64,000 bases of DNA from Halisarca cf. caerulea (Eukaryota; Porifera; Demospongiae; Chondrillida; Halisarcidae). Position 1 is the first letter of the stretch; every line of letters starts with the position of its first letter. The notes below the pieces were generated by a model. It was given only the letters and a program-made list of their open reading frames with translations. It had not been told where the DNA came from and made no database searches. Below, one piece after another: positions 11,776 through 57,086 of this stretch. The position numbers were made by a program, and so were the translations under genes. The DNA lies in contig CAUJGJ010000188.1 in assembly GCA_963170055.1 (NCBI GenBank), forward strand, positions 635,671 through 699,670. Reading direction: 5' to 3'.

Positions 11776-11836
11776 CTATTACACAAAATTGGTATGTTAT
11801 ACTATTTTATACTAAGGATTAATTTGTCCATTTCAG

Positions 11837-24454: not shown

Positions 24455-27400
24455 TTAAGTTCTCAGTTCTCTTTCAAGTTTCTGTACTTGGTCAGCTCTT
24501 CCAAGGAGTGCATATACATGGCTCAATATGTGCATGGTTCTAATAGACTCTATGTGGTCATTGCTACGGCGATGGCTTTCAAGACATTCTTCCAACAGCT
24601 TCCTAGCAAAGTGCAAATCACCACAATGAAGATTAGCAAGTCCCAGATCACTCATAGTAATTGAAATGTTAAATAAAGTTGTATTGCTTTCACTTAGTGG
24701 AATCAACCGATGCAAATGCAACGCTTGAGCAAAAATTTCTTTGCTTTCAGACCAGTCCTTCAATGCAGTTAGAACAACACCCAGGAGAGATAAAGTATCA
24801 GCCAAAATTGTTAAGTGAGCACTATTATCAAAACGCTGAGGTATTTTCTGAAGAATTTGCAATGTTGATTCCAAACGTGATCTCGCCCTTTGTAGTTGAT
24901 TATTTCTATAAAGTGTGATGGCTTCATTTTTTAAACTTTCCGCAACAGTCAGATGATAGTGACCATTCAGTTCCTGAAACATTTCAACAGCTCTTCTACA
25001 AAGATTAGCTGAATTGAATGTGTCTTGCTCTCGCAGTGCCACTCCAAGAAATGAAAGACCTCTAGCTTGATCAGATAATGAGATGGTTGGAGTACTCAGT
25101 TGCCCTTTCTCAACAATATGATAAATATGCGGGACGAGAGCTTGAATATAACAAGGAACTTTAGAGTGCATTTTAGCACTCCTCATAATTGATTCCAAGA
25201 TGACATGATGACATGAAACTAACTGAAGGTACTGGTCTCGAGACATTCGCAGTTTAGGACGTGAAAATTCTCTCAAAGTTAATATACCTGGTTTCCCACC
25301 CAAATAGCCGCATTGAACACCAGGGAGATTGCTAAAGCCGCCTTCATTATACTGATTAGACAAAGAAAACCAGCTTTTCTGCAATGGTCTTTCACTATAC
25401 CCATCACCTTGGTTAGAATTAAGAGAATAATTCTGAAGAAAGAGGTGGAGTGCTTTATGGATATGAACACTAGGTACTGTAGACCCACATGTCATACCTA
25501 AAGAAAACAGAGGAACAGAAGGCAACCCTATGCCACAATCAGTAGACTCGTGTGACAATATTGCTTGTGACTTTTCAGGTACACGATGAAGGCTAATTTT
25601 GCTTCCATCTCTTTCTAGTCTCCAGTATGCCTCGACTAAATCCAAAGGCAATGGAAAATCCGGATTACATTGAGCTAGCATTTCAAGGATAATGCGCAGT
25701 TGTGGGTATTTATCAACACAGTTCTGAATGCTGACCTGCATTAGATGCCCTAGCCAAGACTCACTGTCTTCATTTTGAAACAATGAGATATCTGGCACAC
25801 TAGAAAGATTAGTCAACAATGCTAGTGCCCATGGCATGGTTGTCACACTGTCCATAAACTGAAGTACATACTCTTCTGTTATGTCACTGTTTGCAGCTAC
25901 AAGTTCCAATCCTTCTTCTTTTGTGAACCTGAATCACACAGGAAGATATCATGCACTAATCAGTGATAACAATTACGTGCATTGGTACACCAAAATACAT
26001 ACATCTATCCAATCCATTTTTTCTAGTTAAGGGCATTAATTTCAACGGGTCTCAAATTTGGCTAATTTAGCGGCCTTCGAAGAAATCATTAAATGAGTTC
26101 CCTTTAAAATTAGTGGTTGCTAAAAATTGGATTTGCTCATGTTAATTTATGCAACAGATTACTGTGTAAATGGTAAATTTTGGCAATTACAAAATGCTAA
26201 ATTTAGTTCCTGCTAAAAATAGTGTCTTTAAAGTACGGTAGGCATCAAAAAAAAGTTTCCGTATCATTATCGTAAAATGGTCAACTTACGATTACATTCC
26301 GATATGATTACGATTTTGTTGATAAATCACGAAGGCCGAATTACGGTGCTAAAGCAGAGAAATCACGGACATCCCAGATCAGATTACGCTAGCGATATGC
26401 AACGAAACTAAACTGAAGTGAATCAGGACGCTGCACTCGCAAAATCATCACATCGAATTACCTAAGTATTTCTCGAACTTCGATCCCCATACCCTTCGTG
26501 TAAACAAGCTTGATTAGCACTTGGAACACAGCTATAACCGTGCAGTGTCTCCGCGGGTTGAACTGCATACGATTTTTATTATCTTGGAGATCGAATTACC
26601 GTCACGAAGGATGGTCGTTGGGTTGGAGATGGTGAGCTAGCCTATGCGATGATCGGATCTTTGAGATCCTGAGGAATGGATGGACCTCAGTAAAAAGGAT
26701 CACTTCTGGTCTAGATCTGCTGATCGGATTATGATTTACATTTGACTGCAGATCAAATTACCCTCACGACGATGATCAAGGGCGATGGTCCCCGCTTCAA
26801 GATCACGAGCTAGTCTATGATGGTCACAGCTTCAAAATCGTCGGATAGGATGAACCCGGGTGATCGAATTACGATTTCTATAAGCTTTGAGATCAAATTA
26901 CGGTAATAAATGGCATCCACATGAAATTACGATTTTCACTACGCACACCATAACTATGATTACGATTACAGTACGTTACTTAACGATTACACTATGGAAA
27001 CTTTTTTTGATGTCTACTGTATCTAATGATGATTCAAAGTTTTTGCAATACAGCGAAAACCTTTACAAAATCACTGAACAACTGCACACACACTAACAAA
27101 TGTGATGGGATCTCAGAAGAACCCCCTTTCCTAGGAAACTTAGAGATTTTTGGTTGAGAAGTATGTACCTCTATTCTGTGTCTGGAACCTAGCTGATAAC
27201 ACAATCCTCCATCTAAAAACACTAATAAGTAAACCAAAAGTTGCATATACTTTCAGTTTGAAACAATTTTGTATGTATGCTCACATGTATCAGGGAGAAG
27301 AACCCCTTGTGACAAATTTCTGCCTACAGGCCTGAAACCTTCCCATATTTTGCAGCAACAAAACAGATTCTTTTGTGGTCATCATCGCTGGACAGTTTTT

Positions 27401-30109: not shown

Positions 30110-30546
30110 TTCTACCACAATGTGAACAGAGACGGCTGATCATTTCCTATCAGAATTCACTATTGCCTTCAATTCAGATGAGTTTTCAGTCCATCCCTGA
30201 GCTGAGTACGGCTCCTTGCGACCTGAACACGTCCACCCAACTATCAGTTAGGAATTCGCATTAACAGACAGTTGGATGGAGGCAGTTAGATTGGCAGACA
30301 GTTGGCCAAAGGCATTTGGATCAGTAAACGGGTAAATGGAAGCATTTTGATCAGCAAATGGCGGGATAAAGGCATTCTGGTCAGTGAACAGCTGGCTGTA
30401 GGCGATCATATTAACTGATCACTGGGTGGAAGTGGTCAGGTCGTAAGCGGCCCTATCAGCTAAGGAATGGACTAGGACTGAAGGTAATCGCAAAATAACT
30501 CTGATAGGAAAGGATCAGCCATCTCCCCATTCGCAACACGGTAGAA
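30110..30546. mobile_element. MITE with internal 33-bp tandem units
   Basis: Diverged inverted arms of about 75 bp carry TTCTACC, GGCTGATC and TTTCCTATCAGA at both ends (left from about 30110, right ending about 30546). The interior has three to four imperfect units of about 33 bp built on GGCATTYTGRTCAGYRAA. Target duplication not resolved. No ORF. Confidence 0.65.
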
Positions 30547-31604
30547 ATAAGTAGGAAAAGAATGGATATGACATCCTCAGGCTACACCTTCGGATGTCCA
30601 GCATCATGGTACAAGATAGTTAAAAAGGGGTTGCAATTGTGCAATCGATTTCGAGCATCGGCCATGTTGGAGGACAACTAGGTGTGATGTGCGTATTTGC
30701 GCATATGTTTTTGCAATAGCGAAGTCCATTAGAAAGCCACTTTTGCCGGGCTACAGAGATACTCTGACTGATTCCAAGTTGAAAGAAAGGTATGATGACA
30801 AGACTAAGGTCCTTAATGGGAAGGATCCTTACAAGATGCCGCCAGACGAGTGGAAAGACGACTTGGACTTCTGGCCAGCAGTAACATACATACACCTTGG
30901 ATTCTATTTGCTGCATTCTCCAAGTCCATACACCAAAGAAGATTTAATGAACTACAAAATGTTGGAATCATACCAGTGACTTGTCGCTGGTTGAGTTAGA
31001 GATATTATTATCTTTACTGAAGGTGAATTGCCGGTGGTCTCTGCAAAGGTTAGCCACCGGCAGTCCGGTTTAGCTGTACAGTAGTAGTGTTGTCATGCCC
31101 TCACCAACGTATCTTTTACTTCACTGAAGGTTTATCACTCTCAGAGGCTCAGGGACAAACCATTGCTTCCCTGGTTTGTAGCTAGTACATCAGGCAAGAT
31201 CATGTCAGCGCATTGCAATTGTATGGCAGGGCTAGGAGAGACTTGCAGCCATGTTGCCTCCTTTCTTTGGGCTGTGAAAGCAGGAATTCCACTACGGGAT
31301 TCCATGACAGTAACCCAGAAAAAAGCGTATTGGGTTATACCTCCTTCTGTCAAAGAAGTACCATATGCTCCACTGCATCAAATTCGGTTCATTGGCAAAG
31401 CAACTTCATTGGAAGCACTGAAACAGACACCCTTCATTTAGCCTGCAAAATCAAACAACCACATGCCATCTTCTACATCTAACCTATCACTGCCACCATC
31501 TTCTACATCTAACCTATCACCGCCGCCATCTTCTACATCTCAAGTAGCACAGCCGCCATCTTCTACACTGCTGCCATTTCAACTATCACCATCGCCATCT
31601 TCTA

Positions 31605-32764
31605 CGGTAGACATCAAAAAAAGATCCGATCACCGTATAGGCTAGCTCACCATCTCCAACCCAACGACCATCCTTCGATCTCCAAGATAATAAAAATCGT
31701 ATACAGTTCGACCCGCAGAGATACTGCACGGCTAGCTGTGTTCCAAGTGCTAATCAAGCTTGTTTACACGAAAGGTATGGGGATTGAAGTTTGAGAAATA
31801 CGTAGGTAATTCGATCTGATGATTTTGCGAGCGCAGCGTCCTGATTCACTTCAGTTTAGTTTCGTTGCATATCGCTAGCACAATTCGATCTGGGATGTCC
31901 GTAATTTCTCTGCTTTAGCACCGTAATTTGGCCTGTCACAGGAATTTTGGTCCGGGTGAATTTTTGGTCTGGCGGACCATATTTTTCGGAAAATTTGGTC
32001 CGGCAGGACCATTCTTTCCTATGAATTTTGGTCCGGCTAAACGAATTTTGGTCAGGGCTTTATAAACGTTTGCTTCGAAGAAGATTCAAGCTTAAACTTA
32101 AACCTAAAGAATTCTTCCGATCATAGGTGTCATCCCAAGAAAACATGACAAGTTTAAGATGCCAACTTTGGCCGAATGTGTCATTTTTTCCCGCCGATGG
32201 ATTCGAAAGAGAAAGAAGGTGGCGCCAAGCCGGACTTGGTTGAGCAGGCCGTAACTTATGTTTTAAAGAAGAGCTATCCAGAGAACTGCACTGAGAACGA
32301 GAAGAGAGTTATCAGAAAGAAATCGAAGAAGTTTGTTGTGAAAGAGTGCAATTTTAAATGACCTGGACTCCCGAACCGTGTGCGGCAAGACTCAGTCCTG
32401 ATATTTGCTCCCCCGGTAAATCTCCAAGTTTTTAGTCATTAAGTTGTATTATATTATAAGAATCTGCATAGATGTGAGTATTTAGCGAGTGATTGTCGTG
32501 CCGATCGCTAGAAGGAGCTACAATTTGGAAGATAAGCAACCCAGACCAAAATTCTTGTATCTGGACCATTTCTTCCAGTAAATTTGGTCCGACCAGACCA
32601 AATTTAATGATGAAAATTTGGTCCGCCCAGACCAAAATTACCCTGACCATTTTTCCGGTGACAGGCCTTCATGATTTATCAACAAAATCGTAATCATATC
32701 AGAACATAATCATAAGTTGATCATTTTACGATTACGATATGGAAACATTTTTTGACGCCTACCA
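31605..32764. mobile_element. CGGTA-TIR MITE, copy B, holding a Ginger element
   Basis: Inverted relative of copy A at 26236: CGGTAGACATCAAAAAAA on the left, and TTTTTTGACGCCTACCA on the right, with TA outside each end. About 330 bp present in copy A are missing after the left terminus. A 730-bp Ginger-like element is nested at 31934-32663. The host of copy B is the Ser/Pro linker of the SWIM-YqaJ gene. Confidence 0.83.
31934..32663 (+). mobile_element. Non-autonomous Ginger-type transposon
   Basis: The ends are TGTCACAGGAA and TTCCGGTGACA (inverted, one mismatch), with the 4-bp direct repeat GGCC at 31930-31933 and 32664-32667. TGTNR termini and a 4-bp duplication are hallmarks of Ginger elements, DNA transposons with a Gypsy-like integrase. 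An ORF at 32197-32361 begins MDSKEKEGGAKPDLVEQAV and contains KKSYPENCTENEKRVIRKKS. It resembles the start of GIN/Gypsy integrase proteins just before the zinc-binding domain. The rest of the integrase is missing. The subterminal regions repeat the motif TTTGGTCYGG many times. Confidence 0.72.
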
Positions 32765-32807
32765 TATATCTAACATATCACTGCCGCCATCTTCCACTTC
32801 TAAACTA

Positions 32808-33972
32808 CACAGGCTCATTATAGTGTGTCACGCAAAATGGCTACCGCTTCGAAGTGGCTAAAATATTAGCGCATTTTTAGCTCAAGACAATACATATTCT
32901 TACTTTTTAAAATCGCTGTGTGTTTTATTGTTATTTATCGAAATATTGGTGTACAGTTGAAGCATATACTTTGTTTCAAAAAGGAAAATTAGCTTTGAAA
33001 AAGGTACACTTTTTGCAGCAAATGGCAAAGTCCGGACATGTACATGGTCTCTAAGAGCCACAAGATTGGTATCAAATGAAAGAGTGGAATAAGTTATTCG
33101 TGAGCGGAAACATTATAACTCGAAATGAGATAATTATAAGGGAAAATGTAGTTTATTGGCTATAAAAATGTGAAAATTAGGCTTTAAAATGGTTATATAA
33201 TCGGCGTACCTGGTTATATCTTCTCTGCTCACACTATGAATGTACACAATAGTACTTTGAAACGTTCGATATCTTCTTTCGATGATATAAGTATCATCTA
33301 CACGTCCGGATCACACGGTCTTTACGAGAGAGGCTTCAAAGTGGCCATTTAATGGTGACGTCAGTAACTATGAGCAATTATGTCATCTGTATACTTGCTT
33401 TTGGCTCTCACGCCGCATGGAGTCCTTCTGATCGGATGCCATTCTAACTTCTATTGGACAGTTATTATTTTCTCAGTGAAGGAAATCCGTTTATAAAGCT
33501 TCAGTTCTGATCAATTTACAATGGATTCGTAAAGCGAATCGGTGAGTTAAACCTCGATCATTTTTGTTTTGAAAGCCCCTTTAAGTTAGTTTATTGCTTT
33601 TGTGTACCTTCCGAATCTTCCCAAAATGTGCCACACATGTTACTTCAGTGTTGATAATTCTTTAGAATAAGCTTAAAGTTTGTTCGCAAGTACAACATTC
33701 CCGTATATTGTGACCTTTTTACAAATCTCGCATCTGCGAAGCTTACTTCTATGTATATGACTCGAATTTCTTGTATTTTTACAATGAAAAAGTTTTTTTT
33801 ATTTTTTGGTTTGCAAAATATACGTATTTCTACTGAGCGCTATGTAATGACACATTACCATGTTTACAGATGAACAAAAGTGACGTAGGCAGAAAAGTGA
33901 CAAATTCTTGAGATTCCTGAACTTTGTCACCTAAAATCCCCATTCCCTGAGACCAACTATAATGCCCCTGTG
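32808..33972. mobile_element. CACAGG-TIR element with TA duplication (1165 bp)
   Basis: Left end CACAGGCTCATTATAGT; the right end read inverted is CACAGGGGCATTATAGT. TA flanks both ends. It interrupts the linker of the SWIM-YqaJ gene, whose TCTACATCT repeats resume at 33975. No coding region recognised. The superfamily is unknown, perhaps Tc1/mariner-like given the TA target. Confidence 0.75.
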
Positions 33973-36267
33973 TATCACCGCCGCCATCTTCTACATCTAG
34001 CCTATCACCGCTGCCGTCTTCTACATATCAACTATCAACACCAGTACAACCAACTACCCACACACAAGCATATACACCACAGGCATCCACAGACCAGCCC
34101 CTTTCAATGGCACCGAGCAATTCAACAATGCCACTAAATCTAAGTTTAGAAACCTTTTAGGATGATTTATCCAGGTGCTCGAGCAAGCCAGCTATTCTTG
34201 CGCTAATGCCCAAATATTCGACCAGATATGTCCCCAGGTCATCCTCTCCCAATTTCCCTGTCCTGGATGAACTTTACAAACAAGAACAACTGGAGTTGTC
34301 ATTTCATGAACTTTTACAGCTGTCGGAGGAGATGGAAATTACAGTCAGCCCACAACAAGCTGTTACTACAGAGAAAGCAACCAGAGGGCAATCTGGATCG
34401 AAGCTTTGGTACAGAATGAGAGCAGGGAGGGTGACTGCCTCAAGGTTGAAAGCTGTTTGTCGAACTGACCCCGCAATGCCATCAATGAGCCTGATCATGT
34501 CAGTCTGCCATCCAGAGTTATCCAAGTTCAGTACAACAGCAACACAGTGGTGATGTGAAGACGAGCAGGTTGCACGCAGCAAGTATGCAAGTATGTCTGA
34601 GGGTACACCTGAGTTTTCAGTGTGCAACTGCGGACTTTTCATTAGTACTATGTATCCTTTCATGGGTGCCTCTCCTGATGGATTGGTCAGCTGCAAGTGT
34701 TGTGGAGATGGAGTGCGTGAGATCAAGGTAAGGTATTGTGTATACTGATCTCTATAATTCTTGTTTTATGTGCAAGTATTCAACTTGTTTCCTATATGCC
34801 CATGTTGCAGTGCCCTTATTGTCACCGTGATGACACCATCGAGCAATCCTCAGAAAGCAAAACATTTTGCCCAGAGAAGACTAATGATTCTTTCTGCCTC
34901 AAGAAGACACATCCTTATTATTACCAAGTGTGTACTATGTATATGACTCATATACTTACTCTACACGTAGAGTTTGCAATTATATAACCGTAACGCATTA
35001 GACAAAGTGCTACACATATATTGCATACGTATGTACTGTTTTTTCTCACAGGTTCAGTCACAACTCTTCTGTACAGGAAGAGATTATTGTGATTTTGTTG
35101 TTTGGACGGAGGAGAATATCTACGTACAAAGAATCCTGCCTGATGAAAGTTTCTGGCAGGAGTGTGTCAGCAAAGCTCCGCATCTTTTTCGAACTGCATG
35201 CCTGCCTGAACTACTGGGAAAGTGGTTCTAACGGCCCCCCAAATCTGAATTGAGGGAATACATCGGATACAGATTGCTCAGCTGAATCGAGGGAAAGTAT
35301 ATCGGATACAGATTGCCCAGCTGAACACGTGTACTGCTTCTGCTGTAGACCCGAGGAAGGATCTATGGTGGCATGTGACAATTTATCATGTCCATATAAG
35401 TGATTCCACTTTAGTTGCCTCCGCTTGAAGATAGCTCCAGTAGGCAAGTCATGGTTTTGCCCAAGCTGCCAAACAACCAGCAAAGGCAAAAAGAAGAAGG
35501 CATAATCACATGCAGTGTTGTTTGAATAGTTATCAATGCATACACAAATTAGTCAAAAGGAACCACTGAATCACATATCTTTACTAAGGCATAACACACA
35601 ATAATTACTTTATCTAATAATGGGACACCATCCTCACGGGCTGTTAGGAAGTCCACTGGCTATGTTCCATGTAGAAATGTGTATTTTTGTCTAAGAACAC
35701 CAATGACCCGCTCAACGTGAATTCTCACATTGGCGATTCTCTGTGTTTGCTCCACTTCAATCCCTGTGAGTTTTTCCCCCTTGTGAATGACGGGATGCTG
35801 ACTTGGGCACAGTACAATCCCATAGATTCCTGAATGTCAAATCCTTTGTCAGCAAGTATGGTGTCACCTGGCAATAAATAGTTCAACAAGCCTCAATTCT
35901 CTGTGAGGTGCTTGTCGCTCACTCTCCCTCCCCAACCACTGGAAATGTAGCACATTGTACCTTGTGGGGTAATTCCGATTAGGTACTTGGCAGTATTGTG
36001 GTGTTTATACGAAGAACACGTTTGTGCTCTGGCCAACAAATTAGATGGTCTCTCTGTAAATATTTCAAATAAGTCTATAATAACTGCACAATTTGGACAG
36101 TGTTTTCGAAAATCCATAGGCATGGTCTGTTTCAAAACTTCCCGCTGTGGCGAATGAATTAGGGGTTTTAAAGTGGTATACATGTCAATCGTGTTGTAAA
36201 AAAGTACGGCTGACAGTAGACTTATGCACTGCAAATCTGTAACCTAGATCCAGGCATGGCAGGTTAA

Positions 36268-38207
36268 AGGGCCACTGACAAGTTCATACAAATTGAACTC
36301 AAATGATAGATATGACTACCTAATAACCAGTAATTGGCAAAAGAGTGACTCCACATCTTCTGTTTGTGAGAAAATTGTAAACTTCCGGTTGACGCCTTGT
36401 TTGAAGTCGCCATTTCGGAAGTGACATGTAAAATAGTTCCGTGTGACTACTGGACGAGAATGTATCGGTTGAAAGCGAGGTAATCGAAGGGCTATAATGG
36501 CTAAACGAAATCAATGCCTAAGACTTGCGTAGCAGTGTTGTGTTCTAGAAGGACAAGTGATGGGTACAGCCTACATTTGTTCCTAAAGGAAACAGCATTG
36601 AGTAATAAATGAACGAGACCCATTCACGTACACAGCGCCTAGTGGGATAGACCTACGGAACATGTAGCCTCTATTCCACAAAGGATTGCAACAGGCAGGA
36701 GGTTCAAATGAGGATAAATCTTAGGCCTATGCAGCAAGAAGCTAGTTCTTGAAGCATGGCTTGGTCTCAGCACTGTTTTCCTAAGCAGGTGATCGATGAG
36801 AAATCTTGCTCTATAGTGTAGTACTCAGCTTCCATTAACGGTGAATGGCCACCCAGGGAGAAATCTCCGCTTCCAAGATGACCTAGATTGTATATCTCCA
36901 TTAATACAGATTGCTCCTTGCATGGCACTGCATAATTCTTTGAAGCTTCCACCTGGTGTACATCTCAAGTGGATGAATGAGGTCCACCTGAACCGAAGCA
37001 ATCCTCAAAAGTAGCAATTACTTCATGAAGTGTTATTGCTGCTTTCAAGGATTGCTTCAGTTTAGATGGACCTCATTCATCCCACCCGTCCTTTGTAGCG
37101 AGCAAATGTAATGGGCCTAACAAGTTGGAGGCCATCAAAAGACACTCTTTGCACAACCATTAACTGTCCAGTTTATGGAGGTTTTGTAATATACACATGT
37201 CAATGTGAGGGGTCACACGGGGCAGAGCAGTGGTGTCTATTGGCTGCACATTTTAGAGGCGTCCTTTAATAAAGGTTTCACTGTCAGTAGTCACTGTAAT
37301 TTCAAAATTTGTACATCAAAGGACACAACTTAAGTACATCATGGTTATGTACATGCTTGGATACATGGAAGGACACTTAAAACATGCGTGTGTTGTCTAG
37401 GATCTGATGGTCCATGAAAATTTGAGCTAATCTTTGTGACAATACAAAATGTCAAGTTTACTTGCATATGCTTTCCAAGATAGTAACAGCACCCTATATC
37501 ATGCATGCAGAGGTCTGCAACATCCACAGAATCTGTTTCAGGCATACCCCAAAAACCCTGGGTGGTCTGGGATACTGTGTCTCTGAATCCACCTCAGACA
37601 ATTTTTCATTTATAGGATCAATCTCCTTGCAACAGGTGCTTCTAACATAGCTTCTACGAGCAGTTGGAACAGGACTGAGGTGTAAACCTGCAACAACTTG
37701 CGGGTTATAGTATAAAGTGTGTTAAATACACTGTTGCACAGGCACACAAGCTATCTTTTTCTATTTTTAACCATTCGTTATTTCCCAGTCGATGTTTGAA
37801 TTTATCGTCCAAACCCAAAAGGTTTGACCACTGACAAAAAGGTCAAACTGATAAGTCTTCACTGAAGCTTGTCATTCACTTTGGCATCAACCGCCTTTGT
37901 CCTTGGATGTATATTTACTCGCGGAAGAACCCCGTGTTCATTGAATGACAAGGACGAGCATTATAGCTCAAATTCTTCTTTGTAACATAGTTTTCTCCCA
38001 ACACGGTCCTGTTTGTGACGTCAAACTATTATGCAACGCTTTTTTCATGTTTACAGAAGTCGCCCACGTATTAATTGGATTTTAAGCACCTTTCAAAGGC
38101 TATAACTCCCCCACCATGTGTACAACAACACTAAAATGGGTATTATTGGACATAGTTTTTCAACCTCCTTAACATATCAAAAGTTTTCCCAACATGCCAG
38201 TGGCCCT
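36268..38207 (+). mobile_element. Kolobok-like element with TTAA target
   Basis: The ends are AGGGCCACTGACAAG and, inverted from the right, AGGGCCACTGGCAT, each abutting TTAA (36264-36267 and 38208-38211). TTAA with AGGG termini fits Kolobok. A plus-strand ATG at 36514 opens a THAP-like zinc finger frame (MPKTCVAVLCSRRTSDGYSL) that hits stops at about 36607 and 36641. Nothing recognisable of the catalytic domain remains. It sits inside the DDE domain of the ISL2EU-like transposase. Confidence 0.8.
36514..36720 (+). pseudogene. THAP domain remnant inside the Kolobok-like element
   Basis: The frame begins MPKTCVAVLCSRRTSDGYSL, continues HLFLKETALSNK, meets TGA where the family has Trp, and resumes with TRPIHVHSA before a second stop and WDRPTEHVASIPQRIATGRR. 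The paired Cys and the spacing match the start of THAP zinc fingers, which bind the transposon ends. Premature stops make it non-functional. Confidence 0.65.
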
Positions 38208-38295
38208 TTAAGCCACAACCGCATGAGCATTATGATCAGTTGCTGAAACTGTGTAAAACTCCGTGACTCAGTGCTAAATTTGTTTTTAAGGTATG

Positions 38296-38577
38296 CAGTG
38301 TTCTCGGCAGCCCTTTTAAGCAGGGCGGGCCACCCTTCTTAAATTTTGGCTTAAACCATTTTTTTTCTTTTAGTAGAGTCATTACTTCTCTGTTCAGGTA
38401 TACTTTGAGTCAATAGATTAGGTACAACTGACACTGTGCATATCATATACTTTACATACTTTGAGCGAATTTCCCCCATTACAATAAGTGAAACCATCAT
38501 ATGGCAGCTGTGCATTGCCCTACTACTGGCTTACGCAAATGCCACCCTCTTTCATTTTTTCTCTGGTGACCACCCTG
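38296..38577. mobile_element. Mini-hAT, deletion derivative of the 57586 hAT family
   Basis: 282 bp. The left 140 bp (CAGTGTTCTCGGCAGCCC, TTTAAGCAGGGCGGGC) and the right 90 bp (GGCAGCTGTGCATTGCCC, CTCTGGTGACCACCCTG) match the two ends of the full hAT element at 57586-60231, with the whole gene deleted. The flanking duplication is no longer clear. It sits in the minus-strand THAP-DDE pseudogene. Confidence 0.82.
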
Positions 38578-39323
38578 GGTACGTAAATAATACAAGTAAA
38601 AGTTCCCAAGAAGGTAAACCCGAGTAGTAGAGTACCTTCTCATCATTGTCCACAAAAGCTGCTTCGTTAAATCTGCTTGCCTCTAAATATTTTGATGCCT
38701 TGGACAATTGTCCACGCACAATCTGTAAATCGAGCTTTATTTCGTCCAGTTCTGCCTTCACTCTCTTGATTTCCACTTCTGGCAATGGTTTTGATTAAAA
38801 CTGAATGGACGAAGGCTCCACAGCATCACTGTTCAGCTGGTTTGAACCAGGCTCGGCCTGGGCGACTTTCATTGTGACTTTCCTTCTCTTCGAATTTCGA
38901 TCTAGCAATCGATTGTACCTACCGTCGTCGCTCTCCTCTTTCTCCTTGTGACCCAGCTTCAGGGATGGCACCCAATCTGGATCGGTTGGCAGATATAATG
39001 GTGATGGCTTTCCGCTCAAGAAATGGTCAGAGCACACTCAGATGTGTGACAATTGCCACTGGTTTCAAGGCCCTTCCTTCGCAATGCTGACAACCATTCA
39101 CGGCACCGTCTGCCGCTCAATTCTTCAGTTTGCAGACCTACCCTCGTTCCAACCGCCGGTACCCAGTAGAATCTCTTATCTTTAGCCGTGTTTACACGTG
39201 CTTTAAACCCACTCCTAAGTGCGATTAGTTTAAGCGCACTTAGGAGCTTTGTTGCATTTACACACGACACGCCAAAGCAGGATTAATTGCATGTGAAATG
39301 AGTTTTCTCTGCGGTTTAGAAAA

Positions 39324-40276
39324 ATGGATGTTCATCACATACTCACCTATGTTTTGTTGCTTATTTTCCGCTCGAGCGCTGCTCGTTCTCGTATGGTACT
39401 ACTGAGAAAGATTGTAGCTGTAAAGGAATGTCAATTTAGGACTTTATGGAGATTGCAATTTCATCGTTTCTATTTTGTGGTGTTTCTAAGTGCAGTTACC
39501 TTAGTGCATTTGACGGTGGATAGAAGTCTGTGGAGATACGAGAGAAGCAGCACCTGGTGGGCCAGAATAGTCAATCAAAGCTTCAATGAAAGGGATTGGC
39601 TTGATAATTTCAGGATGTCCAGAGAGATGTTCGCATATCCATAGACACTCTAAACTACGTAACCGGGACTGGAATCATGAAAATTGCAACGTGACCATGA
39701 CTGTTAAGACTTCCAGATAAAAAATGGCGAAATGGAAGTGGAATAAATGAGAAAACATGGTGATTTTAGCTACTTTGACTTCTGGAAATTACATTAAAGA
39801 GCTTTTCGAGTGCTTCTGAATAAATCAAGCTGATTATGTAGGTTGAAATCTTCGAATCGTCTTCTCCACTAAGGATTTTGTAAGCTAAATAATGCCGTAT
39901 ACCACAAAAACGGTAGTATCCTAAGGTAAATATGTCCATGCAGTGCACGCAGCGTTACATTAGCTACAATTTGAAGGAGGAATGGAATCAATCGAGTGAA
40001 AACTGACGAAGATACAGTGGCCACAGTGAGATAATGTCATTTGGGGTAAAAAATCGTAACTTTTTACCCTGAAGGATTTGAGACTTCTAACTTCTATTAT
40101 CTAAGCATGCTGTGTACTTCACAACATTTGTGAAGTGCACAAGGAGCAGTTTGATGAGACTTGGCGAGAAGAACTTGAGTCAGGTCCTACTGCTCCAGGC
40201 CCTATTCACAGTTCTGGTGGAAACACCAGTGCAGAGAACATAAGAACTGCTCTCTGCAACTACATAAACTCATAAT
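39324..40276 (+). pseudogene. HARBI1-like transposase, middle deleted
   Basis: The first part (to about 39644) ends STWWARIVNQSFNERDWLDN, FRMSREMFAYP, the characteristic N-terminal motif of HARBI1-type nucleases. The catalytic DDE core is absent. The C-terminal part reappears at about 40105-40276 with CVLHNICEVHKEQFDE and ENIRTALCNYINS before a stop. The 450 bp between them match nothing recognisable. It cannot be active. Confidence 0.75.
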
Positions 40277-40475
40277 AATTAACGTGACATTTAGTGTTAG
40301 AATTGTGTGAAAATTACCGGTGAAATAATAGTGTCTGTGTAATAATAGTGCCATAGTGTCTGTACTAGAAAACTCTAATAATAATTACTATTATTAGAAT
40401 TTACTCTCAGTGTTCATCATGCATGCCTACGTATGTTGTGTGTGCCCATCTCTGGTAAGGTCATTGGTGCATAGC

Positions 40476-41406
40476 CAGTGTTTTAGCCAGCAGCCAAAAA
40501 TAGGGGGGGGGGGGGGGGACCTACAGTCTATCATGTAAGTGGATCAATGTGGAATAGGGATGTGCATTGCAGCTATGGTGAGGCTCTGCAGCTACTTTGC
40601 TGAGCTTGCTAGTCTTCTAAGCAAGTGTAAACAATTACTAATTTACACCCAATCAAATTTCCTGTCACTTATCACCTTGTATCTTCCCCTTACATGGAAT
40701 TTAACGCAGTTGAATGGGGTTAATGCCAGTATCTGTAGCCCGGCGGCGCTTGTCCTATAGCTGGGTAAAAGCTGGTGGCAGGACCAGCATGAGAGTGCGC
40801 ATGCGCAGTTGAAGATATGCGTACAGCGCGGGACTGTATCTGGGATCATGATTGCGGGAATAAAGCCCCTTTGCTCGGTTGTATCTGCTGTTTTTTTTTC
40901 TTTTTTTTTCTTTTCTCCGCCTTTTGGCGTGAAAGGGGTGGGGTAGGTGTTGACCCCCAGGGGCAAAGTAGGAATTATGTATGCAGCTTCATGTCAAGGG
41001 GAAGCTACTGTGAACTCTGACACCGGATGTCAGGAAATAAATTAACGGGTTGGGCTGCAAAGCACCTGGGGGGTGGCCCTGCACCCCCCCTTAAGTCCAA
41101 AAGAGGGGTTCACTAATTAAGTGATCACCCTGGTAGAAAACTATATACTATTAGGTTAGAGTATGACATTGTGATGTACAGAAGATTGTTAGGGAATATA
41201 TAATATTAAGGTAGGTTGACCCATCTTATAAGGGCGGAAGATGCAAGGCATTAACCAAGCTCACAGCCCTGATTCTAACAAAGGTGCATAGTTTTAATAG
41301 GAGGGTGGACAGCTTCCAAAGGAGGGCGGATAGCTTCTAAAGGAGGGTGCATACATTGTATAGGAGGGCAGTCCCGCCCTCCTATGATGCTTTGGCTAAA
41401 ACACTG
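40476..41406. mobile_element. hAT-like MITE in the Harbinger Myb gene
   Basis: 931 bp with perfect inverted ends CAGTGTTTTAGCCA. The flanks share ATAGC next to both ends but an 8-bp duplication is not clear. The interior has a G17 homopolymer (about 40503), a T-rich run and repeats of GGAGGGYGGATAGCTTC. It lies over the last codons of the Myb-like gene (reading WAISVLAKA through the TIR). Confidence 0.75.
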
Positions 41407-42390
41407 ATAGCCCATTCCAATCCCTCCTGTAACTGATGGAATTGGTGATGGTTGTGGTACCAGTGGAGGGGGTAGTACAATGATGGTGAATGTGGTGATT
41501 GGGGAACCATCATCTGACCCAAAATCTGCAGCAGTCTTAATTCATGCTCCCTGTCATCTTTGCACATCTTCTCCAAGAACTCCATCTTCTCTTTCTCCAT
41601 TTCCTCAATAACTGCCATCATCTGTGCTTCCATTTCTATCTGATGGTCTAAGAATTTCTGTGTGACTCCACCCAGAGCTTTATCTAAAGCATTGAGTCAT
41701 GGTCGTTTACTTCTGGAGGCTGTTTGAGAGTTTGGTGGTCTTGTCTGCCCAGCCACAGAAAATATTGGTTCTTCTGTTGGATCATCGGTTGGTATGTCAT
41801 CTGGTTGTATGTCCAGGAGGTCCTGTACCCCTGGGGTGGGTTGTGGAGAGAAAACTGTATCAAAAAGATCAGGACTGCGGTGTCCTCCTGCAGAATGTTC
41901 TTCAGACTGAGCAGATGTGGGTGTAGTTACAGTAGGTGTAGATGTCAATGTAGTGGTGGATGTACGCGAGTGTGAAGTTGATGCTAGTGTACTAGAGTCT
42001 GACTCTATTGTTGCAGTTGACATGGTTGCAGAAGACTGAGAAGTTGGTGGAGAGGTAGTATCTATAATGTTTCTGGGTCTAGTGGAAGGCTTATCTGCGA
42101 GAACAGTGTCGATGAGGTCGTAATTAGGCCAGTTAGATCACAATTTCCACTTCTATTATGGCCATTCTTCAGGTCCTTATAGTACTGCTTGAGATTTTTC
42201 ATCTTATCTTTGCATATCTTCCAGGTTCTGTGGAAGCCAGCAATACGTAGGCGCTCAGAAATGTTACCCCAAATATCAGCCGTCCAGCCGTGACTGTACA
42301 GTTCTATCAGACCAGATTCAAATCAAAGCCAGAATTTCTTTGTGCATCCAAGATTGTCCTCTAGAAGAAGCCATGTTTGTAGATATCCGC
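41382..42390 (-). pseudogene. Myb/SANT-like DNA-binding protein of Harbinger
   Basis: On the minus strand the frame from about 42300 reads HGWTADIWGNISERLRIAGF, HRTWKICKDKMKNLKQYYKD, LKNGHNRSG, the trihelix Myb/SANT-like domain of Harbinger accessory proteins. A Ser/Thr-rich linker follows (42023-41697), then a stop, and a coiled tail from 41633 (EMEAQMMAVIEEMEKEKMEF, CKDDREHELRLLQILGQMM). Upstream sequence near 42390-42310 has a stop. In active elements this protein carries the nuclease into the nucleus and to the ends. Confidence 0.72.
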
Positions 42391-42774
42391 CGATTTCCCG
42401 TGGTCTTCAAGCACGCTTAACCTCTTTACACGATGAGCTTGCTTACCTAAAACTGATCAAACTCGTTTCCAAACCACCTCCTGATCAGGTTTACACAAAA
42501 TTCACTTCTAAGCCCGATTAAACCATTTACACATACGAGTTTAATCGCATCTAAATCTAAACGCGTTTATAAGCGCCCTTAACAGTGCCCGTGTAAACAC
42601 ATCTATAGTCTCGGTTAGATCGGTTGGTACAACCCACAACAGCACAAAAGTTCACCATAGTCGTTTCTCTCTCAGAAGAAAACACATTAGCCTACGTTCA
42701 CACATACATTTACACGTGAGGTTGTCCTCCAACATGGCCGCCCCACTTATAGACTCTGCCCACTGCAACACCTC

Positions 42775-43757
42775 TATACAATTAGTCTCATTCCTACCCC
42801 CACTTCCGGCCGCCATTTTATTCTGGCCGGGAAAAGTGGGTCTGGCAAGAACCATGGGTAAAACCTGGCTTTTCGGCTGTCGCATCCCACGAAAAAGTCA
42901 CATGACATTCTAGTCGCGAACCTTGTACAGCTGGCGCACATTTGGGACGATTTATTACGATAGGATACAATGAGAGCTAGCGTGCAACATCTTACTTAAA
43001 TAAGCCATAGATATTCTAACCTACGTATGCAACCGTGTAGGTTAAAGTATCTATGATTAGGCAGAACTGCTTTTATTAACCTCGATGGGAATAGGGGAGA
43101 TCGGCGGAATGAAATTAATACATCACTCCCTCGTGCATTTTGTGTCGCTCTCCTGTGAATAATATCTACAACAGAAGAGTCACCCACCCACAAAGTGAAG
43201 ATAACGCTGATCTTCAAAGATTTCTATTAGATATTGTATGCCCGACTGGATGGCGTTTTCCTTCTTACAGAACTGTAAGCTGCGTTTGCCGATCTCCGTG
43301 TTTTCGGAATTTAAGCAAGGATTAAAGTATCATACAGCTCTTTTTCCTCCTCCAGTCGGTAAAGAGATAAAAATATCGTGACCAGAAACAAACTGCTTGA
43401 CAGTGTTACACTGTTTGCACTCCAGCGAAGAATGGCCATGAGCAGTAGTCGCCTTAATAATAACTTTTCCGATGTAGTTCCAATCAAACCATTTTTTCCA
43501 GTCACAGTATAAAGATTCTACTTCTTCGCTCCAGCTTCTTTCGCACTCAAAATGAAGGCTGATGCACATGACATAAGATGTGATAGGTACAATTCAGCAA
43601 TCTGATTGGTTTGCATGGTTGCGTGCAAACCAATCAGATTGCTTTATCGTAAGCCAGGTTTTACCCACCACTGTTGCCAGACCCACTTTTCCAGGCAAGA
43701 ATAAAATGGCGGCCGGAAGTGGGACTGGGAAAGAGACTATTATACAATGGGAACGGA
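42775..43757. repeat. Inverted repeat pair, about 105-bp arms
   Basis: CCCCACTTCCGGCCGCCATTTTATTCT, AAAGTGGGTCTGGCAA and GGGTAAAACCTGGCTT near 42775-42885 recur in inverted orientation at about 43650-43757. The 765 bp between the arms contain a fragment of a helicase-like gene. It may be a foldback element or two copies of one dispersed repeat; ends not resolved. Confidence 0.65.
43330..43569 (-). pseudogene. RecQ-like helicase fragment
   Basis: The frame reads KQCNTVKQFVSGHDIFISLP followed by TGGGK, the motif I (Walker A) region of RecQ-like DEAD helicases, then stops. Upstream residues resemble the lead-in to that motif. Nothing of motifs II to VI follows, so it is a short captured or decayed piece. 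Confidence 0.45.
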
Positions 43758-48467: not shown

Positions 48468-48611
48468 TTAAACGATCTTGTGTAAAGGCAGTTGTCCTGA
48501 GCAGCAATGATGAAGCTTCCGGTTGTGCTTTGAAGCTGACCTTTACACATCCACCGAAACAACAAATCAACATTGAGAAATGTGTTTGTGTGCACATCAC
48601 TTACAGACTTA

Positions 48612-49363
48612 CGGTACTTCTCATAGAAAACCGTCCAGCACGCCGTCAGTCATTCAGTCAGTCGATCAGCACTCAGTCAAGAGTCAATTGTCAGTTTCCA
48701 ACGGCATCATTTCATGATGCGTAATAAAACGTCACGGTTGTTACGCAATGCCAATAGTCAAGGAAGAAAGAAATGGTGAGAAAAAGTGTATTCAAACCAC
48801 GGTATGCACAGAAATTATGTTCGATTGCGCAGAATAAACTTCACGTGAACTTTATTGAAGTTTTGAACGATTTTTGCTGAAGCTTTGAACGATTTTCGCT
48901 GAAGTTTCGAGCGTACTTCGCTGAAGCTTCAAGGCCACCATATTAAGATTTTGTGCGAACTTAACTGAAACTTTGAACAAACTTCACTGAAACTTCAAGC
49001 GAACGTCATTAATACTTTCAAGGAACAAGCAAGACTGCGGAGCTACTGCTATCCACATCCGAGGGATACATCGCATTTCCAAAGTGATATCCCTCCAAGT
49101 AGTTACAACGGACTTGCCCCAATCCAACGATCGAAGAAGACGCTTCAAATATTTCAGGAGATAAATTACCAATGGAGGCGGACAACTAGACTTTTTTCTC
49201 AAATTTGAAGAGTCTTTAGAGAAAAAGAGAGTGGATGTTTCGATCTCTTGCGAAACGTCACTGCCAGTCACACAGTCGTTCAATCGTTGCTCGAATGGTC
49301 AGTCAATCAGTCAGTCATGTGGTCATCGGCCGTAAACTGGACGGTTTTCTATGAGAAGTACCG
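48612..49363. mobile_element. CGGTACTTCT-TIR element, copy 1 (752 bp)
   Basis: Perfect inverted ends starting CGGTACTTCTCATAGAAAAC, TA on both sides. The interior has a half built from modules of 10-12 bp (GAAGCTTTGAAC, GATTTTCGCT; 22-bp double period) at about 48850-49015. Copy 2, in the opposite orientation, is at 62921-63651. No ORF of a transposase. Confidence 0.88.
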
Positions 49364-50618
49364 TATGTGAGTAGCTCTGAATTACAACTGAGACATCTGG
49401 GCCTTCTGAAGCTTCCGAAGGATCCTCATCGGACCCGATGGAGGGCTAGCTGTCCACTCCACATCATGTCCAGTCTCACACAGGATCTTGCTTGCTGTTG
49501 GAACCAAGCTGAAAGAACTCTTTTCACCCACGGAAGCAAGTGCTTGTGCACCACCTCCATGAGCAGATCCCGGACGACCCAAGATATACGAGGTGACTCA
49601 CGATCTTCTGCTTCCAGACAAGCAGGAGGCTCTGGGGCCCCCTACCCCCCTGTGAGCAAGGAAGATACAGCCTCTCCAGGGAGGCGTTTAGATGGTGAAA
49701 CTGATACCTGTGCAAAATCTTCTGTGTGAGAATGTCCAGGCCCTCCAGCTCCTTCTTAGTCCACTTCACTGTCACAAAGCAATATCTCAAAAGAGACACC
49801 ACCAGGGCAGGGCGTTGGTGGCTTTGATCTTGTTCTTGGAGTTAAGTTGCGACTTCCATATCCTATGGAGCCTCTTCCTATACTCGCAAGTAACATGATC
49901 CTTCACCAGCTTGTCATCCGTTTCAAACAACTGGTCAATTCCGAGATACCTGTACACATACTGGGGTGACAAACACTGCATTGAATCAGAGATATTGAAT
50001 CTGCCTTTGGTTGCCCACAAAACCTGTTGTGCGTAGTCTCCTAATGTAAAGCTTTCAAGGGTCTCGAAGCCTACCACTCCTTCTAAAGCGACCAATTGCA
50101 ATAATAGATGTTGGGCTGGCAATGAAAACTTAAAAGTTATCTTGTTAGTCGCCAAAAGACATTTGTATAGACAGCAAATCAGATTCAAGATAGAGAATTT
50201 TACTTTTCTATCTCAAATCTGATTGGGCACGTACATTGCACATAAGAATGTAACGAATCGACCTGAAACACATTATTCATTTAGTCACTTCATGTTTGTG
50301 TCATTCTGATTGATTTTAACGAACTATTGTTTTCATGTAATAGTAGGAGGTCAATGTCTTGTCTTGTGTTGTATCTGTCAGGTTCATGTGTATGATACGG
50401 TACAAGAAATAAAAAGGTTGACGTTTTACGGCCGTAGTATGGCCGTACTTGGCACCGTAATAGGACCGTACTAAGAAAAAATTACGGCCGTAACAAAAAA
50501 TTACGGACTTGACCGTAATACGATATGCGCCCCGAATTTAACGCCTAGGTGAAGGTTAAGATCAGCGAATTTGGTCAATGCTTCTTTCTGTGCTTCCAAG
50601 TATGGTTTACTCCGACTA

Positions 50619-50889
50619 CGGTAGGCACGGAAAATATGTTACCATGCGAAGAGTACAGTTCTAACGAAGTTCGTTCGAAGTTAGGGCAAAGTTCGCTCGA
50701 AGTAAGAGCGAAGTTCGTTCGAAGTTAGAACGAAATTTCACGTATTTCGGTAAATGTTTGCACGAAGTTCGAAGCGAAGTTCCACGTACTTCGGTAGAAG
50801 TTTGCACGAAATTCGTTCGAAGTTCGCTCGAAGTTTTTTTTGCGAAGTTCGCTTCGAAATGCATGGTAACATATTTTCCGTGCCTACCG
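50619..50889. mobile_element. Nested 271-bp TIR element with 11-bp phased array
   Basis: Perfect 29-bp inverted ends starting CGGTAGGCACGGAAAATATG, with TA on both sides. Between them run about 15 modules of 11 bp (GAAGTTCGTTC, GAAGTTAGGGC, AAAGTTCGCTC and so on). It splits the HTH frame of the surrounding Tc1/mariner-like element. Confidence 0.9.
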
Positions 50890-50891
50890 TA

Positions 50892-51198
50892 CGTCAAACA
50901 AAGGATCGTTTACTACCGACGCCTTGGAGAATCCTACGAGGCAATCGTGCGACATCTGGAGGATGAAGGCCACAAGGTAACAAAAGCCGGAGCTCACAAG
51001 TTTTGGAAATGCTTTGAAGAAATAGAAACCATTCAGCGAAAGCCGGGGAGCGGAAGGAAGGCCAAGTTCTGTCTCAAAGCTGAAGAGATGGCCGCGGACG
51101 AGGAGACAACGAGAGAAGAGTTGAAGCGCGTTCTGCAAAAAAACGGCATTCAGGTTTGTGCCAGGACCGCTGTGGAGTGGAGGAAGAAGCCTTTTTAA
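50892..51198 (+). pseudogene. Tc1/mariner-type transposase N-terminal HTH fragment
   Basis: The frame reads VKQRIVYYRRLGESYEAIVR, HLEDEGHKVTKAGAHKFWKC and FEEIETIQRKPGSGRKA, a paired-like helix-turn-helix ending in the GSGR linker of Tc1/mariner transposases. A second HTH-like part follows (EETTREELKRVLQKNGIQVC) and the frame stops at 51198 before any DDE domain. The 5' part of the frame is separated by the nested element at 50619-50889; the frame is open on both sides of it. Such a truncated protein could bind ends but not cut them. Confidence 0.72.
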
Positions 51199-51491
51199 CG
51201 CCCGTAATTTTGATGAAATACCGTAGTAAATCGAAAAACGGGTCCGTAGTACGGTCCGTTTTAGGACCGTACTTAGAAAAACGGTACGGCCGTAAAACGT
51301 CAACTTTTTTACTTCTTGTACCGTATGTTTGTCTTGTGTGGAAACTTGGTATATATTTAAGCTGTCTGTAAAGTGACTCTCTAGTCTCTGTAAGAGTTTG
51401 CTGTGTATGCTGCTATTGTGAAGAATTAATCAAAGTCCAATGTGTTGAAGTGTCGTGTCACGAGTTCGACAACCCGCCAAGGCGTTACAGT

Positions 51492-51509
51492 TGGAGGTCC
51501 CACCGAGAT
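51492..51509 (+). other. Primer binding site, tRNA-Gln type
   Basis: TGGAGGTCCCACCGAGAT is complementary to the 3' end of animal tRNA-Gln (..ATCTCGGTGGGACCT plus CCA), two bases after the LTR. Confidence 0.8.
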
Positions 51510-51522
51510 CGCAAGAGATCTC

Positions 51523-54500
51523 ATGCAAGCTGACTGGATCAAGTTAAGGACGACTTCAAAGGATCGAGATCACAAGAACCTCACATTATCTCGGGATCCT
51601 AGATCCTACATCACACCGGATAGAATGGATGTCAAGGACAGCGAGCGAGGTAGCGGGACAGCAGAGACCACAGTTCTACCGCTGAGTTCGAAAAGGATCA
51701 CACGTACGCACCTTCGGCGCATAGCAGAGGCCATGACCCTGCCTGCGGACGCTCCGAGCAGTGAACTTCGGACGCTCATCGAGGGAAGACTAATTGCTGA
51801 AGACAGAAACCCTCTCAGCGTACAAGTTAACCTTACGAAGGAGGAGGGACGATCAGGTGTACTGTTAAAGCTAAATGACGTCAACGGGACTTTCCTTTCC
51901 GCGGAGTCTTGCGAGGAAGAGGAACCGAATGCAACACCGGAAGTCCGCGAAATGGTTAGTAATAAGAGCCAATTTTCCCCCATACCCACATGGTCTGAGT
52001 GCAGCAGTGGAGATGGAAGCGTGGATGAACTTATACAGCAGCTAGGAGTAGTGCAACAGGAGAGGCAACAGCTGAGGCAGGCAGTAGAAACTTTGCAGAC
52101 CAGAGTGACAGAGCTAGACCAGAAAGTGTGCCAGTTATGGGAGAGCAACTGTGAGCAGAACAGGCAGCATGACCTGGTGGTAGAGAGTAAAGATGCACAG
52201 ATTGAAGACCTCAGAAGGAAAGTAACACTGTTAGAGAACCGTTTGCATTCTGTGTTGTGTCCTAATGTGCAGTTACAGTGTTACAATGTCACAGAACCCA
52301 CCAATGTTGCCCACATGCCACCTGTCACCAGTGTTGTGCCGTCTGTACCATTACATACTGCGCCGTTATACCAACCTGTTGCAACAGTCGCTCAAACGAA
52401 CCCGCAAACTTTACGTCGTCGTGGTACAGCCCCACCAGTCGATCAGTTTACTGGAGAGAATCCATCCATACGTTTCGAAGACTGGGTACCAGGGTTAGAA
52501 AGAGCAGCACAATGGAATGACTGGAATTCAAATGAGATGGTGATGCAACTAGCAGGACACCTGCGGGGAAAAGCGCTGGTGGAGTGGGATTTACTCCGCC
52601 CCCAGGACAAACAAGATTACATGAGTGCTAAGGAGGCACTACAGGCTCGCCTCGACAGTGGGAGTAAAACACTGGCAGCACATGATTTCAGACATGTCCA
52701 ACAGAAAATGCAAGAGTCAGTGTCGGATTTTATCACTCATTTGGAACGAATGTTCCAGATTGCATATGGCAGAGACAATATGTCTGTAGAGACACGTGAA
52801 GCATTGCTACACAGCCAACTTCAGGAAGGTCTCTCCTATTACATTATGAGCTCACCGGCAGTAGCAGGTGCGCAGACATACAAAGAATTATGTCTGTCAG
52901 CCAAGAATGAAGAGAAACGGCAGTCTACTCTAAAAAGGAGGCAAGAGTACCTGAAAGGATCTAAGCCTACCACAGCCATACCGGTCAGTAAACCAATGCC
53001 ACAGTCAAAGCAGACAAAGGTGTCACCCACAGGTGCAACACCCCAGTTCAAGCAGCAAGGTCCATGCTACATATGCAACAAACCTGGTCACATAACACGG
53101 AACTGCCGCCAGAGAGCTCAGACTCATGAGAGTCGCGGTTTCTTGAGCTCAACTAGTATACCCAGGAAGGCAGATCAAAAGCAAATTACCAGCCAACCCA
53201 CTAGTAAGGTAGGAGTGCCGGCAGAACTCCTTGAAGCACTTGATTCTGACTCCTCATCAGAGAGTGTGAACCGAGTGGAGGTGCAAGATCAAGGAAGCCA
53301 ACCACGATGTGCCAGAGTATTCATACAGGGAGTACCTGTTATTGGCATAATTGATAGTGGGGCTGATATTTCCATTATAGGTGGAAAGCTTTTCCGACAA
53401 GTGGCAGCAAAGGCAAAGCTGAAGAAGCGCCAGTTAAAACTGCCAGATAAGACACCCAAAACCTATGATGGGAAGGAGTTCCACTTAGACGGGCGAATGG
53501 ATCTCGAAGTTGCTTTTGCAGACAAAGTCTTAAAGACTCCCCTGTATATCAAGATGGATGCAACTGACCAATTGCTTCTATCAGAAGGAGTCTGTAGGCA
53601 GTTGGGAATTATAGAATACCACCCAGACGTAGAGATTTGGCGTGGTGGGAAAAGGAATAAGAAAGTGTCTGGTAGTAAGCCCAGAACAGAGTCGCATGTT
53701 CCAACTGTGCGAATCAGACTGCTGAATTCGGTCCGCATTTTACCACAGCATGCTGCATCTGTTCAGGTACAGTTGGATCCATGTATGCTGCCCACTGATA
53801 CCAGTACTGTCTTGGTTGAAGCCGAGCCTACCCTTCACACTGAGTTAGGGATAGAGCTATTGGATTCTCTTATTGAGCCAACAACTGATGGAGTTGCAAG
53901 CCTGTTCATGGTCAATTCAACAGGTTTCACTCAAACGGTGGACCAAGACACTGAAGTGGGGTTTGCCCATTGCATTGAGATTACAAAACCCACTAGTGAA
54001 AATGCAGATGAGTCTAATCTTGCATCAGTCTTTGTTATTTCAGCAGAGAAAAGTGAGGAGCGAATTCAGAAGCTCTGGGATATCTTGGATAACCCAAATC
54101 TGCCTGAACCAGAGAGTGAAGGACTAAAAGACCTTCTTTCCTCTCATCACCAAACCTTTTCACTTGAGGAGGGAGAGAGAGGACAAACGGATTTGGTAGA
54201 GATGGTAATAAACACAGAGGGTGTTGATCCAATCAAACAACACCCAAGGCGTGTACCATTTTCTGTCAGAAGGGAGGTTGCCAGGCAGGTGGATAAGATG
54301 TTACAGGAAGGTGTCATTTCTCCTTCGGAAAGCCCATGGTCATCACCTGTAGTTATGGTTCGGAAGAAAGATGGAACACATAGATTCTGTGTTGACTACA
54401 GAAAGTTAAATTCAGTGACAAAGCGTGACCAGTTTCCTTTGCCACATATAGATGACCTCCTCGATCAGTTGGGGAAAGCCAAGTACTTTTCAACATTGGA

Positions 54501-57050: not shown

Positions 57051-57086
57051 CTGCTCGGGACGAGCAAACCTGGAAGAGCCGGGTGA

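Follow-up and report, generated by a model that had tools for sequence, protein, structure and literature searches.

The sponge Halisarca cf. caerulea carries, in a stretch of 64,000 nucleotides analysed here (contig CAUJGJ010000188.1, positions 635,671 to 699,670; hereafter the window), a DNA transposon of the ISL2EU type that is interrupted by nine other mobile elements. We consider it almost certain that an ISL2EU transposon of the PIF/Harbinger-ISL2EU-Spy (PHIS) superfamily inserted at this locus, decayed and was then hit successively by unrelated elements. The outer element measures 12,152 bp with its inserts and about 4.17 kb without them (12,152 bp less 7,968 bp of first-layer inserts and target duplications of about 17 bp), close to the 4.1 kb that an earlier note, made from the letters of the window, had given for the remainder. 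A tally with slightly different limits for the Harbinger-type insert, in which target duplications are not subtracted, gives 7,966 and 4,186 bp. The nesting is three deep, from the ISL2EU element through the Harbinger-type element and a hAT miniature inverted-repeat transposable element (MITE) to a TTAA-flanked element, insert 9. The earlier note had counted seven inserted elements in two layers, having overlooked those at 39640-40091 and 40694-41250. All features are listed in the table below.

An insert-free sister copy and the limits of the outer element

The genome searched was a 194.5-Mb assembly of 454 contigs, in which the window is C175:635671-699670; other C and L labels denote other contigs and loci. 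A sister copy was found on the minus strand of C64 (123412-126698) that is 88-93% identical by segment, its pieces following each other in the same order on one strand. The main aligned pieces correspond to window positions 30620-31490, 34349-36267, 38208-38295, 38578-38924 and 42699-42779. C64 holds remnants of both genes between the same 20-bp repeats, together with the outer 35 bp, and contains none of the nine inserts. Since the alignment runs in order on one strand, the two genes lie within one repeat pair at a second locus as well. This bears out the proposal that two convergent genes within one pair of inverted repeats were broken by unrelated transposons. Neither of the contrary outcomes that the earlier note had named in advance, genes never found within one repeat pair or inserts belonging to the element itself, appeared. 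Relatives of each of the nine inserts, including those that had been listed, occur at other places in the genome, and the listed insertions are real. As a single pair of perfect 20-bp inverted repeats encloses all intervals, they could be regarded as belonging to one large composite element, mobile as a unit. We rejected this on the insert-free C64 copy and regard it as most improbable, since each insert also has its own relatives and most are accompanied by a target duplication of their own.

The 20-bp inverted repeats at 30659-30678 and 42721-42740 are perfect. With up to three mismatches allowed, their 19-bp core occurs twice in the window, compared with 0.01 times on average in 100 shuffles. 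They had been taken as the outermost ends, whereas homology with C64 extends 35 bp further on each side. Within this outer part, the left and right ends of the window copy agree at 16 of 35 positions, a value that 263 of 20,000 shuffles reach. The subterminal position of the repeats and this limited likeness of the outer 35 bp would suit a different origin, in which the repeats stem from another element and the two genes from two neighbouring transposons. C64 has both gene remnants between the same repeats and outer 35 bp, and at C369:1196911-1197195 a THAP start lies 37 bp inward of an end motif of the ISL2EU type. On these two loci we rejected two unrelated adjacent elements, an arrangement that we find scarcely credible.

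With the left end as query, two further loci were retrieved, and with the right end one further locus, C64. The query 34161-36262 gave 11 matches including itself, two of them at the C64 and C40 loci. At C40 lies a short derivative, in which 30656-31138, 35157-35479 and 42669-42763 are joined. Related ends at L014, L032 and L033 have AGACCCNTTGCA in common, with AT outside. These were found with the pattern TAGACCC, and because the T was already included in it, the AT at these three loci is not independent of that choice.

Two convergent gene remnants lie inside the repeats of the outer element, a YqaJ nuclease gene on the plus strand (gene 1) and a THAP/DDE transposase gene on the minus strand (gene 2). 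In gene 1, YqaJ is recognized in two pieces (E-values of 1.2e-4 and 1.0e-4; 22.8 and 23.1 bits at a cut-off of 22), and Viral_alk_exo matches with 7.7e-6. The other parts of gene 1 are less tidy. With X in place of a stop, a PHD-like finger reaches 6.9e-5 and 23.2 bits, just below the cut-off of 24; its counterpart, an open frame in C64, has no Pfam match. The N-terminal region with the pattern C-x-C-x7-C-x-H, which we take to be SWIM-like from this motif, has no Pfam match either. It has 112 homologous proteins, several of which carry YqaJ in the same chain (three were re-scanned), and the few named ones come from Amphimedon, Saccoglossus, Pholidichthys, Priapulus and Hydra; the one from Amphimedon is labelled SWIM-type by its source.

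The transposase of C64 is one open frame of 259 amino acids that spans the sites of the Kolobok-like element and of the mini-hAT, so that the frame indeed resumes at the TTAA of the Kolobok site, as had been proposed. HTH_Tnp_4 matches residues 128-179 of this C64 frame (6.4e-17), and the Kolobok site corresponds to residue 144. THAP codons flank the Harbinger-type insert directly, again as proposed: read through this site, with NRDY and KDKR joined, the finger is recognized by Pfam THAP (5.7e-9). The joined THAP has matches at 11 other loci in the genome, nine of which align over the join in one piece and two only after it. The best one, C369:1196911-1197195, has an open frame over residues 1-93 of 94. 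Unrelated THAP genes may be included among the remaining loci. Among the 120 listed of 1041 relatives of the C64 transposase (the query had seven wrong leading letters), 11 have THAP, HTH and DDE together. The DDE piece had no match among PDB sequences at an E-value of 0.01. The window copy of the outer element is dead, since the codon with which gene 1 probably starts in C64 is altered and both genes contain stops and frame breaks. The genes of C64 are likewise damaged.

Table. Features of the nest (positions in the window; TSD, target-site duplication; rc, reverse complement; ORF, open reading frame)
Feature	Position	Strand	Remarks
Outer ISL2EU-type DNA transposon, whole	30624..42775		homology with C64:123412-126698, 35 bp beyond both 20-bp repeats
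Left 20-bp inner (subterminal) part of terminal inverted repeat	30659..30678	+
Gene 1, first part	30719..31603	+	N-terminal and SWIM-like region, start of Pro/Ser-rich linker (30-bp repeats); internal stops
Insert 1, TA-flanked MITE carrying insert 2	31605..32764		ends CGGTAGACATCAAAAAA / rc TGGTAGGCGTCAAAAAA
Insert 2 (in insert 1), Ginger-like, non-autonomous	31934..32663		TGTCAC..GTGACA; 4-bp GGCC duplication
Insert 3, non-autonomous CMC/CACTA-like element	32808..33972		CACAGG..CTGTG; 2-bp TSD (TA here)
Gene 1, second part	33975..35505	+	linker end, YqaJ nuclease, PHD-like finger
Gene 2, DDE transposase C-terminal part	35560..36267	-	DDE_Tnp_4 2.5e-18
Insert 4, Kolobok-like element	36268..38207		begins AGGGCCACTG; TSD TTAA; 30 matching pieces in genome including self
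Gene 2, THAP second part, linker, HTH start	38208..39183	-	cut by mini-hAT (38296-38577) and, in HTH, by Kolobok-like element
Insert 5, mini-hAT	38296..38577		CAGTGTTCTC..CACCCTG; 6-bp duplication GGTATG/GGTACG
Insert 6, PIF/Harbinger-type, carrying inserts 7 and 8	39184..42604		Myb/SANT-like ORF remnant
Insert 7 (in insert 6), left part of a longer element	39640..40091		begins CATAGACACTCTAAACTACG
Insert 8 (in insert 6), hAT MITE carrying insert 9	40476..41406		CAGTGTTTTAGCC..GGCTAAAACACTG; 5-bp TSD ATAGC
Insert 9 (in insert 8), 557 bp, without terminal inverted repeats	40694..41250		flanks TTAC/TTAA
Gene 2, first THAP-finger codons	42605..42658	-	MVNFCAVVGCTNRSNRDY
Right 20-bp inner (subterminal) part of terminal inverted repeat	42721..42740	-

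Nine inserts on three levels

For five of the nine inserts (2, 4, 5, 8 and 9) an empty site was seen directly, and family counts refer to 40 scored matches out of 93 candidates for the MITE, 390 for the CMC-like element, 333 for the mini-hAT and 261 for the Harbinger span. The scored matches of the MITE (insert 1) comprise the insert itself, a single match of the Ginger-like type and 38 other copies, which have its left part (from about 31621). In 36 of these 38 copies the right part (from about 32664) adjoins and the Ginger-like element is absent; of the 36, 29 have the two parts overlapping by 5 nt where they join, six have an overlap of 3-4 nt and one has a gap. One of the other MITE copies lies within the window (26234-26662) and has a single GGCC site empty of the Ginger-like element. 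With TA on both sides, insert 1 is a candidate MITE of the Tc1/mariner type. The ends of insert 2, TGTCAC..GTGACA, are presumably those of Ginger, a group of cut-and-paste elements with an integrase-like transposase and duplications of 4-5 bp. Insert 2 shares with Ginger these ends, the 4-bp duplication and a longer relative, at L081, with Integrase_H2C2 (7e-14, read with X at one stop), of whose gene region it keeps only the first part. The TG..CA ends would also suit a solo long terminal repeat (LTR), a candidate that we rejected in favour of Ginger, which in our judgement fits the subterminal inverted repeats and the integrase zinc finger of the relative better.

In the family of insert 3, a 2-bp duplication is present in 18 of the 19 other fetched copies and varies in sequence; this and the CAC.. 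ends fit CMC/CACTA elements, which duplicate 2-4 bp of free sequence. For insert 4, C64 has a single TTAA. We take it to be Kolobok-like rather than piggyBac, which also uses TTAA, from the letters of its terminal inverted repeat. At the position of the mini-hAT, one GGTATG is present in C64; the 6-bp duplication in the window has one mismatch and lies within the 5-8 bp range of hAT elements (PMC4482050). The Harbinger-type insert 6 contains a Myb/SANT-like reading frame (Myb_DNA-bind_4, 1.6e-10) and has three other copies among the scored matches (C369, C412 and C89). A putative DDE transposase is represented by an N-terminal stretch that has no Pfam match and presumably resembles the Harbinger transposase.

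Two elements entered the Harbinger-type insert. Insert 8 is absent from all three fetched Harbinger copies and has identical terminal inverted repeats of 13 bp in the window copy. Its target duplications are 5 bp long in all four copies read (ATAGC here; AATAG, CATAC and GTAAT elsewhere), so that both the target and the terminal repeats, of the CA..TG type, are those of a hAT element. On these 5-bp duplications we place it with a group of hAT MITEs, with which it also shares the ends CAGTG..CACTG. The longer element of which insert 7 is the left part has, at three other loci, its first 39-44 bp repeated in inverted orientation after about 360-560 bp. Where insert 7 stands in the window, the Harbinger copies hold about 740-765 bp of Harbinger sequence; judged from this comparison, a single deletion therefore probably removed the right part of insert 7 together with about 750 bp of the Harbinger-type element.

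Insert 9 lies within insert 8, and its site is empty in the three fetched hAT MITE copies (L078-L080). Its copy at L083 is flanked by TTAA on both sides. The last 312 bp of insert 9 (40939-41250, TG..CA) match separately at six places within the Harbinger-span sample; three of these pieces lie directly upstream of a full unit, and a shorter upstream piece is found at a fourth full unit. At C301, C40:3597839 and C226 the segment stands by itself. Because it combines fixed ends, a lack of terminal inverted repeats, TTAA-like flanks and a 312-bp segment that stands alone or directly upstream, insert 9 might represent a type of mobile element as yet undescribed, mixing features of TTAA transposons and miniature LTR elements, an idea to which we give little credence.

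Several observations weigh against our interpretation of the nest. The left outer flank of the window copy is AA (30622-30623) rather than AT; the right one is AT (42776-42777), and C64 has AT on both sides. Of the five first-layer sites, C64 has lost three through deletion, those of the MITE, the CMC-like element and the Harbinger-type element. Because of these deletions, the limits of the first two are set by family ends and target duplications, and the empty site of the third is known only from THAP homology. The flanks of the Harbinger-type insert, TTT and ATA, form no clean 3-bp duplication, where TWA is expected. In other Harbinger copies the 3-bp flanks are ATT (L075) and AAA (L077), the right end at L076 being unreadable. 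For insert 7, no empty site is free of the accompanying deletion.

The surroundings of the nest contain further repeats. To its right, at a distance of 7 bp, a neighbouring element (42783-43739) is bounded by 89-bp inverted repeats (42783-42871 and 43651-43739) that are 88% alike, and to its left a short MITE-like stretch (30129-30525) is bounded by 29-bp inverted repeats that are 90% complementary. Two adjacent tandem arrays occupy 1-8587 and 8666-11779, with units of 123 bp (about 70 copies) and 147 bp. A Gypsy-like element at 50248-57399, identified by its reading frames, has end repeats that are 99.4-100% alike and looks recent; its left end repeat is split by about 926 bp (50398-51323). 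An inverted repeat pair of about 760 bp (48610-49369 and 62915-63653) is 89% identical. On the minus strand, an open frame of 492 amino acids (24458-25933) matches, beyond its own protein, a single unnamed protein with 50% identity. Rfam at the gathering threshold and ARAGORN gave no matches in the whole window.

Order and age of the insertions

Nine pairs of elements are ordered directly by the nesting: the outer element precedes five inserts, the MITE precedes the Ginger-like element, the Harbinger-type element precedes two inserts and the hAT MITE precedes one. On our reading, an ISL2EU element landed at the locus and decayed. The TA-type MITE and the CMC-like element later entered gene 1, and the Kolobok-like, mini-hAT and Harbinger-type elements gene 2. 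In turn, the Ginger-like element inserted into the MITE, the hAT MITE and the now shortened insert 7 into the Harbinger-type element, and the TTAA-flanked element into the hAT MITE. These insertions and their nesting are demonstrated by the data. No intact transposase was seen within the inserts, which were presumably mobilized by enzymes encoded elsewhere. The nest had been proposed as a readable record of the order in which families were active. This is true of the nesting order; it gives a partial order only, in which the five inserts of the first layer have no rank relative to one another.

Dating the layers by divergence, as had been suggested, proved unworkable. Kimura two-parameter (K2P) distances between the outer element and C64 are 0.059-0.095 by segment. 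Distances to the family majority are 0.036 for the CMC-like element (19 copies) and 0.068 for the Kolobok-like element (16 copies). The Harbinger-type element differs from three copies by 0.068-0.147, and the value for the hAT MITE is 0.019-0.069; against a single fetched copy each, insert 7 gives 0.056 and insert 9 gives 0.044. The Ginger-like element stands at 0.106 and the MITE, compared with the window copy, at 0.064 and 0.138. The divergences along the chain of Harbinger-type element, hAT MITE and insert 9 are compatible with the nesting and do not resolve it. In the tree of the CMC-like family, the terminal branch of 0.0315 is the second longest of 20 rows including the window copy (median 0.0115). 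For the Kolobok-like element it is 0.063 or 0.053 (first 600 or 900 bp; 15 or 11 rows). With C40 as outgroup, 33 of 826 sites (about 0.04) have changed privately in the outer element of the window and 23 of 826 in C64. The Kolobok-like insert thus diverges more than its host, which again disturbs a tidy picture. Read as an age, this cannot be true; terminal branches give no more than upper bounds, and we rejected an ordering of the first-layer inserts by divergence, in which the Kolobok-like insert appears older than the element that it interrupts.

The same private changes bear on whether other transposons land preferentially in the ISL2EU sequence, or at this locus with its neighbouring satellite arrays. 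Nine inserts here against none in C64, and a window that is also repeat-rich elsewhere, would favour such a preference. However, only two copies are compared, of which C64 is the shorter, and from 33 against 23 private changes the chance that all five first-layer hits fall on this copy is about 0.07. The first-layer targets also differ (TA, 2 bp of free sequence, TTAA, 6 bp and 3 bp). Overall, we consider a preferred landing site unlikely, and successive hits by unrelated elements on a decayed ISL2EU copy remain our preferred interpretation.

Comparison with known systems

ISL2EU elements have been described as transposons of animals only, with AT duplications, a THAP-HTH-DDE transposase and a YqaJ protein, with a mean length of about 4840 bp (PMC4482050), and their two-gene make-up is also reported in PMC9179366. 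The outer element resembles these members of the PHIS superfamily in its THAP, HTH and DDE regions, its YqaJ reading frame and the AT flanks seen in C64, and its length of about 4.2 kb compares with about 4.8 kb (PMC4482050). It differs in some details. The terminal inverted repeats of ISL2EU elements usually begin with GG (PMC4482050), which is not the case here (AAAGGGG.. and AGAGGTG.., with AGACCC.. in the related ends); this departs from a tidy reading, although we do not treat it as excluding the assignment. The target is A|AT|T in the published group (PMC4482050) and T|AT|A in C64. Gene 1 also has SWIM-like and PHD-like fingers. By term counts, the main texts of PMC4482050 and PMC9179366 make no mention of such fingers, the one occurrence of PHD in PMC9179366 being a doctoral programme. 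The 2015 survey reported PHIS elements as absent from sponges (PMC4482050).

The nest leaves views on how these elements work unchanged. With nine insertions, three levels and five direct empty sites it could serve as a benchmark for annotation software, and it carries a warning that an insert, judged by divergence within its family, can appear older than its host element. The nest is real and well supported, yet ordinary, since transposon nests and chronology from nests are already established. The ordering of families from interruption matrices is provided by TRANScendence, which cites TEnest (PMC5657132). The logic of who interrupts whom is the same here, applied to one locus, single events and nine pairs rather than to a matrix.

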